From positions 1-64,000 of the forward strand of contig NZ_FOGZ01000005.1 in NCBI RefSeq assembly GCF_900111365.1: a stretch of 64,000 nt of DNA, read 5' to 3'. The translations under genes were made by a program, and so were the position numbers. The DNA comes from Propionibacterium cyclohexanicum. Its GTDB lineage: Bacteria > Actinomycetota > Actinomycetes > Propionibacteriales > Propionibacteriaceae. How positions within the stretch are numbered: the stretch's first letter is position 1; every line of letters starts with the position of its first letter. The notes beneath the pieces were generated by a model that was given only the letters and a program-made list of their open reading frames with translations, did no database searches and had not been told where the DNA came from. This document shows positions 1-6,959 of the stretch, piece by piece.

Positions 1-94
1 CCTCGGCTTCCGCAACCTCACCAACTACATCGCCCGCAGCCTGCTCGAGACCGGCGGCTTCAGACCCCACCTACACCCTCATCTGTGAAGAGCC
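1..94 (+). mobile_element. Right end of an ISL3-family insertion sequence (transposase C-terminus and terminal repeat)
   Basis: Frame 2 reads through the last 28 codons of a transposase, beginning LGFRNLTNYIARSLLETGGF and stopping with TGA at 86-88. This C-terminus resembles IS204/IS1001/IS1096/IS1165 (ISL3 family) transposases as I remember them. Six bases after the stop the sequence TGAAGAGCC ends at 94; its complement GGCTCTTCA is the usual kind of ISL3 terminal inverted repeat. From position 95 the recB reading frame resumes on the other strand, so 94/95 is taken as the element boundary. The rest of the element lies left of the window, so the other repeat and the target duplication cannot be checked. 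Confidence 0.75.
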
Positions 95-1444
95 GATTTG
101 CTCGCCGGTGTGCCGCCTGCGGACCAGTACCGCCATATCGCTGGGGCGCAGGGCCCGCCAGCGGCCCTGCGCGAACAGCTCGGCGCGGGCCAGCAGCTGA
201 TCGAAGGTATGCACCAGGTCCGCGCTGATGGCGTCACGCGCCGGCTGAGCACGCAGCAGGCGCTGGGGGCTGATGGCTCGTAGCTGGACGGCCGGTGGCT
301 GGCCGCGCTGGGACCCGATCCGCAGCCTCGGGAAGCTCTGCTGGGTGCTCACGGGTGTGAGACGGATGTCCTGGCCTGCGCTACCGAGCCCTGCGGCGCC
401 GAACAGCTCTGCCAGGCCTTCGGTCACCCCCGGGTCGCAGCGGTAGTTGCAGTCGAGCGTGAACCGTTGGTCAGCCTGGCCGGTGGCGTCGAGATAGGCC
501 TGCACATCGGCCCCCCGGAAGCCGTAGATCGACTGCTTGGGGTCACCGACGATGACCAGCCTCGTCCGGTGGTGGAATGCTCTGCGCAGGATCGTCCACT
601 GAGCAGGGTCAGTGTCCTGGAACTCATCGACCATCACGAGATCGAAACGCTCCGCAAGGGTGCTTGCTGCGCGCTCGCCCGTGACACGGTCGTTCAGGGC
701 ATCGACGACTCGCTGCACCATGTCGTCGAAGCCGTGCAGCCGAAGACGACGGGCCCGGTCCTCGAACTGGCGCCGTATCGCCCCGGCGAACTCGAAGCGC
801 GCCCGTGCAAGAGGATCGTCGGGGGGCGGTTCGAGCAGGCGAAGTCCGCGATGACCGAGCACCGCATCGCCGACGATTCGTGCGACATCGGGCGCAAGCT
901 GGGCCGTGCCCTGCATGCTGGTGGCCAACCGCACGTCGTCGATCACCTGGTGGCGGAGCACGGCCAGTTGCTGCTCGGAGCCACGGCCGGTGTCGTGGTC
1001 GACGAGCATCCCCAGTTCGTCGAGCAGCCGGCCGCAGAACTCGTGCGTCGTGGCGATGGTGGCCCGACCGAAGTCGCCGAGTGCCTGTTCGAGCCGGCCG
1101 ATGCGCGCACGGAGGACCGGTGGGTCGCCGGCACACAGGGTAGCCAGCATGTCATCACTCGGCTCGCTGTCACCCGAGCCTGCCAACGCATGGCGCAGCG
1201 CCTCCAAGCTGGCCCGGAGCCGTTCGTGGACGCGTGTCCTCAATTCGAGAGTGGCCGAACGCGCGAAGGTGACGAGCATGAGACGGTCGATCGTGGTGAG
1301 CCCCTCGGCAAGTGCCCCCGTGGCGAGGGCTGCGATGGCGAAGGTCTTGCCGGTGCCTGCGCTGGCCTCCAGCACGGTCGTTCCGTCTGGCAGGGGGGCG
1401 CAGGGATCGAAGCAGCCGGGTGCGCGGGTCACGGCGCTGGTCAT
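95..1444 (-). pseudogene. recB: recB, exodeoxyribonuclease V beta subunit, 3' part removed by IS insertion
   Basis: About 450 codons of RecB remain, against roughly 1100 in the intact family. The N-terminal UvrD-like helicase half is clear: Walker A EASAGTGKT near residue 30, the Walker B-type box VDEFQDTDP, VGDPKQSIYGFRGAD and the NYR box. The reading frame runs into the IS at position 95 and stops at 71 after seven IS-encoded residues. Helicase motifs IV-VI and the C-terminal nuclease domain are missing. The ATG at 1444-1442 overlaps the recC stop as ATGA, so recC and recB were translationally coupled. The longer upstream start at 1657 lies inside recC and is rejected. RecBCD is probably inactive in this strain unless a complete copy exists elsewhere. 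Confidence 0.88.
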
Positions 1445-4738: not shown

Positions 4739-4813
4739 GAACTGGCCCCCGACAGTACCGGATTGTCCACAGCCCCGCCCGGGCATGGTCCCGCGGCGCT
4801 CGGACGCGGCGTC

Positions 4814-4819
4814 TATCGT
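4814..4819 (+). promoter_or_regulatory. -10 element of uvrD2 (leaderless)
   Basis: TATCGT lies 7 nt before the ATG at 4827, and no Shine-Dalgarno sequence precedes that ATG. This supports a leaderless mRNA and the chosen start. Confidence 0.5.
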
Positions 4820-4826
4820 TGCCGCC

Positions 4827-6959
4827 ATGTCCACCGATTCCCGTCTGACGAGGTCCGCGTCTGCCCGGGAAGCCGACGAGGAGGTACTGTCCGGGCTCGA
4901 CGACCAGCAGCGCGAGGTGGCCATGGAGATCGGCGGGCCGCTCGTCGTGGTAGCGGGCGCGGGCACCGGCAAGACCCGTGCCATCACGCACCGGATTGCC
5001 CATGGCGTGCTCAGTGGCCAGCAGCAGGCCTCTGCGATCCTGGCCGTCACCTTCACCACGCGGGCGGCCGGCGAGATGCGGGCCCGGCTGGCCGGGCTCG
5101 GGGTGCCGCGGGTCAGAGCAAGCACCTTCCATGCGGCGGCCCTGCGCCAGTTGCGCTATTTCTGGCCGCGAGTGATGGGTCACGAGCTTCCCCAGGTGAC
5201 CGGATCCACCTATGCGCTCGTGGCGGAGGCGGCTTCGCGGCTGAAAGTGCGCACCGACACCGCATTGCTGCGCGACCTGGTCACCGAGCTGTCGTGGGCC
5301 AAGTCCACGAATGTCACCCCGGCGGACTATCCGGCGGCCGCAGAGCATGCCTCCCGCTCGGTTGCCGGGGCTGATCCCCAGACGGTTGCCCGGGTCGCCG
5401 CCGAGTACGAGCGCGTCAAACGCGGCCACGCGGTGATGGACTACGACGACATCCTGCTGTGCGCGGTGGCGCTCATGCATGAGCATCCCGAGGTGGCGCA
5501 GGAATTCCGGGCAGGGTACCGCCATTTCGTCGTGGACGAGTACCAGGACGTCAGTCCTCTGCAGCACAGCCTGCTGCGGCTGTGGCTGGGGGAGCGTCGT
5601 GATCTGTGCGTGGTCGGTGACCCCGACCAGGTGATCCATTCCTTCGCCGGAGCCGACGCGCGCTTCCTCATGCGCTTCTCGCGCGAGTTCTCCCAGGCGC
5701 GCACCCTTCGCCTGGAGCGCAACTATCGCTCCACGCCCGAGGTGCTGCAGGTGGCCAATGACCTGCTCCATCCGCCGGGACGGCGCGCGGTGGGTTCGGG
5801 AGTGGTGCTTCGTCCCACCCGGCCCGCAGGTGTACCGGTGATCACCGAGGCAGCGGGCGACGAGCCCGCCGAGGCGCAGTCGCTGGCGCAATGGCTCGCC
5901 GGCCAGCACCGCGACGGCATCGAGTGGTCGCAGATGGCGGTGCTGTTCCGGGTGAACTCGCAGGCGCTCGCGCTCGAGGCGGCGCTCGGCGAGGCGCACG
6001 TTCCCTATGTCGTGCGCGGCACCGAGCGCTTCTACGCTCGCGCGGAGACGCGCGCAGCGCTGGCCCGGCTTCGCCGCGACGCCGACCGCGCACCCGATGC
6101 ACCGGCCTCGCAGGCAGTGGCAACGAGCCTGGGTTCGCTCGGCTGGACACCGCAGGCACCGCAGGGCCAGGGCGCTGTGCGCACGCGCTGGGAGACCTGG
6201 AGCGCCCTGCACGATCTGGCGACCGACCTCCACGATGCGGGGACGCCGGGCTTTTCCGATGTCGTCACGCTCATCGAGCAGCGTGCCCGCAATGAGCAGG
6301 TGCCGGTCGCCGATGGCGTCACCCTCACCACATTCCACGCCTCCAAGGGCCTGGAATGGCGCGTCGTCGCACTGTATGGAGTCGTGGAAGGGCTCATGCC
6401 GATCTCGATGGCCACCGAGCGCTTCCAGATCGCCGAGGAGCGCCGTCTCCTCTACGTGGGAATCACTCGCGCCCGTGACCAGCTGCGGATCAGCTGGGCC
6501 ACGAAGGGCTCGGGCAATCATGCCAGGCGCTCCCCATCGCGTTTCCTCAGCGGGCTGGTGAGCGACAGTGCGGCTGCGCCGGACTCGGGCGACGCACCGG
6601 GGCCCCGACGCTCGGCGCGAAGACGCCGGGCGGAGCAGTGCTCGATGTGCGGGCGTCCTCTCACCACACCCGGAGAGATCAAGCTGGGCCATCACGACGG
6701 CTGCGAGGTGCCCTACGACGAAGAGCTGTTCGAGCGGCTGCGCACCTGGCGGGCGGCGGTCGCGGCCAAGGAGTCGATCCCGGCCTACATGGTGTTCACC
6801 GATGTCACCCTGCGCGCCTTCGCAGAGGCCTTGCCCGGTGACCGGGAGAGTCTGCTGAAGATCCGCGGTGTCGGGCTGCGCAAGGCGGAGCGTTTCGGCG
6901 ACCAGGTGATCGCGCTGATCAAGGGTGCCTCGGCGCAGCAGGCGCTCACCGAGGCATGA
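4827..6959 (+). CDS. uvrD2: ATP-dependent DNA helicase UvrD2 with HRDC domain
   Basis: A 710-residue superfamily 1 helicase. Walker A AGAGTGKT is at about residues 43-50, VVDEYQDV near 236, VVGDPDQVIHSFAGAD follows, and motif V/VI appears as TTFHASKGLEW and LLYVGITRARD. After the motor comes a cysteine region beginning CSMCGRPL near residue 605, then an HRDC domain to the end. This is the layout of mycobacterial UvrD2, a 3'-5' helicase whose activity depends on the cysteine motif. Here only three cysteines are visible (CxxC and one after HHDG) where mycobacterial proteins have four; a histidine may replace the fourth. The gene lies next to the E1-like/protease block, as in Mycobacterium. A start at 4785 is possible but lacks support. 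Confidence 0.9.
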   Translation: MSTDSRLTRSASAREADEEVLSGLDDQQREVAMEIGGPLVVVAGAGTGKTRAITHRIAHGVLSGQQQASAILAVTFTTRAAGEMRARLAGLGVPRVRASTFHAAALRQLRYFWPRVMGHELPQVTGSTYALVAEAASRLKVRTDTALLRDLVTELSWAKSTNVTPADYPAAAEHASRSVAGADPQTVARVAAEYERVKRGHAVMDYDDILLCAVALMHEHPEVAQEFRAGYRHFVVDEYQDVSPLQHSLLRLWLGERRDLCVVGDPDQVIHSFAGADARFLMRFSREFSQARTLRLERNYRSTPEVLQVANDLLHPPGRRAVGSGVVLRPTRPAGVPVITEAAGDEPAEAQSLAQWLAGQHRDGIEWSQMAVLFRVNSQALALEAALGEAHVPYVVRGTERFYARAETRAALARLRRDADRAPDAPASQAVATSLGSLGWTPQAPQGQGAVRTRWETWSALHDLATDLHDAGTPGFSDVVTLIEQRARNEQVPVADGVTLTTFHASKGLEWRVVALYGVVEGLMPISMATERFQIAEERRLLYVGITRARDQLRISWATKGSGNHARRSPSRFLSGLVSDSAAAPDSGDAPGPRRSARRRRAEQCSMCGRPLTTPGEIKLGHHDGCEVPYDEELFERLRTWRAAVAAKESIPAYMVFTDVTLRAFAEALPGDRESLLKIRGVGLRKAERFGDQVIALIKGASAQQALTEA

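Follow-up and report, generated by a model that had tools for sequence, protein, structure and literature searches.

An ISL3-family insertion sequence (IS) interrupts recB at the left edge of the DNA analyzed here, a stretch of 64,000 nucleotides from Propionibacterium cyclohexanicum (the window). At a probability of roughly 93%, we read this as an insertion that truncates RecB, leaving RecBCD very probably inactive and the processing of double-strand ends to AdnAB. The features concerned are listed in Table 1.

Table 1. Features at the left end of the window
Feature	Position	Strand	Remarks
IS right end (ISL3 family, ISPfr2-like)	1..94	+	Last transposase codons, stop, terminal inverted repeat; end of contig C42
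8-bp target-site duplication GATTTGCT	95..102	.	Second copy adjoins the IS left end, contig C17
recB 5' fragment, 450 native residues, helicase motifs I-IV	95..1444	-	TIGR00609 recB 7.8e-81
recC, intact, 1109 aa	1441..4770	-	TIGR01450 6e-134; RecC_C and Exonuc_V_gamma domains
UvrD/PcrA-like helicase with HRDC domain (UvrD2-like), divergent neighbor	4785..6959	+	

The two halves of recB

The recB frame is open from position 1444 down to 95 and continues for seven foreign, IS-encoded residues (GSSQMRV) to a stop at positions 71 to 73, giving a product of 457 aa. This 5' fragment matches the RecB model TIGR00609 up to model position 557 and is 54 to 57% identical to the intact RecB of three same-genus genomes. 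It carries a Walker A stretch (ASAGTGKT), motif II (DEFQD), and motif III (GDPKQSIYGFRG), assignments that follow established knowledge of UvrD-like helicases. The original prediction correctly described a frame intact from 1444 to 95 that then meets an IS, next to an intact recC (Table 1). It also held that motifs IV to VI and the nuclease are lost; this is right for motifs V and VI and the nuclease, but motif IV (NYR) is retained near window position 448.

A search with a relative's RecB placed the missing portion at the right end of contig C17. From that end inward, C17 carries the IS left end, GATTTGCT, the recB 3' part, recD, and intact adnB and adnA, so that the other IS end, the 3' half of recB, and recD, all expected beyond the window, lie together on one contig. 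The 3' frame matches TIGR00609 positions 558 to 1175 and contains motif V (TIHKAKGLQFP), motif VI (LLYVAATRA), and nuclease motifs (GTQFGSLVH and DYKT). The start of recD overlaps the stop of recB, and RecD scores above its NCBIfam cut-off. No single protein thus combines the full-length helicase and nuclease of RecB (TIGR00609); the two halves lie on separate frames.

The predicted 8-bp target duplication, GATTTGCT, begins at position 95 and has its partner copy beside the IS left end on C17, an exact match that is unique when the 38 right IS ends are compared with the 32 left ones. Fusing the flanks over a single GATTTGCT yields one open RecB frame, HTGEQIQEALADAGIPAVFTGG, which is collinear with the intact RecB of the three same-genus genomes, the halves meeting at the same residue; on the RecB of one of these (G001), the two halves cover coordinates 41 to 482 and 480 to 1163. 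Comparison with these relatives, in which recB is a single open frame, likewise bears out the predicted interruption. The gene order across the two contigs, adnA-adnB-nudix-recD-recB on C17 and recB-recC-uvrD2 on C42, is also that of the three relatives, and a simple insertion is therefore the most economical reading. We infer that C17 and C42 are separated by one element of about 1.4 kb. A composite element, or additional DNA between the two IS ends, is a possible alternative to a simple IS: no contig spans the element, and the assembly breaks there without an ISL3 transposase body.

The element and the draft assembly

Position 1 of the window is also position 1 of contig C42, part of a draft assembly of 58 contigs and 2.81 Mb. 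Bases 1 to 94 encode, on the plus strand, the transposase C terminus LGFRNLTNYIARSLLETGGFRPHLHPHL followed by a stop, and the IS end terminates in ...GAAGAGCC, in agreement with the recognizable transposase C terminus and terminal repeat originally described. Near-identical copies of this end are found at 14 contig ends. Plasmid matches to the transposase peptide, at about 90% identity over the C terminus, are annotated as ISL3-like element ISPfr2 family transposase. In the same-genus genome G003, a complete homologous copy measures about 1.43 kb between its ends and matches Pfam DDE_Tnp_ISL3 at 4e-58; its right end is 90% identical to that in the window, where only C-terminal transposase residues are available for comparison. 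Within the present genome, the left and right inverted repeats of the element agree at 24 of their first 25 bases. The element shares with the ISL3 family (ISPfr2 group) terminal repeats starting GGCTCTTC, an 8-bp target duplication, and the transposase C terminus; it differs in that the body of the copy in recB is absent from the assembly, its identity being read from the ends. A Pfam profile search for the ISL3 transposase found no transposase body anywhere in the genome's own assembly, because the draft breaks at unassemblable copies of the ISL3 repeat.

Both recB contigs terminate within a high-copy repeat that no contig spans, a situation in which the assembler could have ended the recB contig wrongly on the repeat while the gene is whole in the organism. 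To gauge this, we gathered the ISL3 ends at contig ends (38 right ends and 32 left ends, belonging to two subtypes) and paired them by their adjoining 8 bases. This gave 27 pairs with an exact, unique 8-mer, against 0.02 expected by chance, and the recB pair is among them. IS sequence adjoins the identical 8-bp duplication at both recB ends, whereas a chimera would leave neither matched duplications nor an exactly joining frame. Misassembly at recB, which the original prediction had named as a way in which it could fail, is very unlikely given these 27 unique pairs.

It is also improbable, if slightly less so, that only part of the sequenced culture carries the insertion and the rest has an intact recB. 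ISL3 transposition has been reported to differ between subpopulations of one Propionibacterium freudenreichii strain (PMC5644110), and a subpopulation with intact recB is beyond what an assembly can reveal. However, the assembly contains no uninterrupted recB, and a sizeable intact fraction would tend toward a contiguous path.

Several observations concern the ISL3 copies more generally. The draft breaks at them at contig ends (for example, L047-L058 and L091-L146), and the 8-bp target duplications can serve to scaffold it, with 27 contig joins inferable. Right ends of the two subtypes are about 88% identical to each other, those of the second subtype terminating in GATGAGCC. One pair, formed by the right end of contig C10 (L047) and the left end of contig C48 (L101) with the duplication GCTTTCAT, joins a subtype-A right end to a subtype-B left end, which suggests that the element is a hybrid or that two IS copies have recombined.

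Expected consequences for double-strand break processing

In the proposed course of events, an ISL3-family element would have entered recB behind codon 450 (of about 1120), with duplication of the 8 bp GATTTGCT, and cut RecB down to a protein that keeps helicase motifs I to IV without motifs V and VI or the nuclease domain. The 3' part of recB would then form a reading frame of its own, and recD, with its start overlapping the recB stop, would probably be uncoupled. Judging from known RecB function, a protein without motifs V and VI and the nuclease would not be expected to work, and RecBCD is very probably inactive; recD, downstream of the IS, may be impaired as well.

Both recB fragments are still open, with 52 to 57% identity to relatives and conservation about equal to that of their neighbors. 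These features, together with an ATG within the IS end in frame with the 3' fragment, would be compatible with a split RecB, in which both fragments are made, reassemble, and remain partly functional together with RecC and RecD. We consider this highly unlikely, and see just as little chance for its specific form, in which the 3' frame starts at the IS-supplied ATG (MKSQQIQEAL...) to give a 676-aa protein with motifs V and VI and the nuclease. The insertion lies between motifs IV and V, within the helicase motor; by eye, no ribosome-binding site can be recognized upstream of the IS ATG; and a recent insertion would equally leave open frames. The open, conserved fragments fit such a recent insertion.

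An intact second recB, which the original prediction had also named as a way in which it could fail, was not found in the assembly: a full-length RecB query from a relative returned only the two halves and weak UvrD-like helicase paralogues. The alternative route foreseen in the original prediction, AdnAB, is present and intact; on C17, about 3.5 kb separate the end of adnB from that of the recB 3' fragment. AdnA (1132 aa) and AdnB (1147 aa), encoded by adjacent genes, each have UvrD-helicase and PDDEXK_1 domains, in keeping with the AdnAB architecture of two UvrD-like motors that both carry a nuclease domain at the C terminus. RecO is also present in the genome. Double-strand ends would then be processed by the nearby AdnAB, on which the strain would rely, and the RecO pathway would assist in loading RecA. 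Ku was not found in the whole assembly (TIGR02772), and Ku end joining seems to be absent too.

According to the literature, AdnAB provides the main recombination pathway in mycobacteria, and RecBCD of this phylum acts in single-strand annealing. Because of this division of labor, the functional consequence of RecBCD loss is probably modest; most likely, the strain would lose RecBCD-dependent annealing and one exonuclease but keep most of its homologous recombination. The altered recombination and phage defense put forward in the original prediction are inferred there and probably overstated, although an effect on phage defense is possible.

RecC occurs in 96 of 97 genomes of the family, as does AdnA (96/97). 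Members of the family thus normally carry both enzymes, and the recB insertion described here is an exception. The genome resembles its three same-genus relatives in gene order and in having both sets of genes, and differs in that recB is interrupted rather than a single open frame. As in recB loss-of-function mutants, RecB is truncated while the recC and recD frames remain; here, in contrast, the lesion is a natural IS insertion and AdnAB is also present. E. coli, unlike this genome, has no AdnAB.

Corrected for motif IV, the original observation and its interpretation are borne out. The event itself is an ordinary gene inactivation by a common mobile element, cushioned by the intact AdnAB, with nothing mechanistically new. 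Literature titles and abstracts offered no clear parallel to a natural disruption of recB by an IS. The strain would be a well-supported natural example of an actinobacterium that has AdnAB but no RecBCD, whereas nearly all examined genomes of its family keep both. The case is in line with the view that a cell with AdnAB can do without RecBCD, and the strain provides a natural background for probing the contribution of RecBCD.

A last observation concerns the IS ends as sources of start codons. The left end supplies an ATG (ATGAAGAGCC) in frame with the recB 3' fragment (L063:14540-14560, right end of contig C17), and the right end has a GTG in the corresponding place. As read from these ends, insertions of this IS can potentially create start codons for downstream frames.
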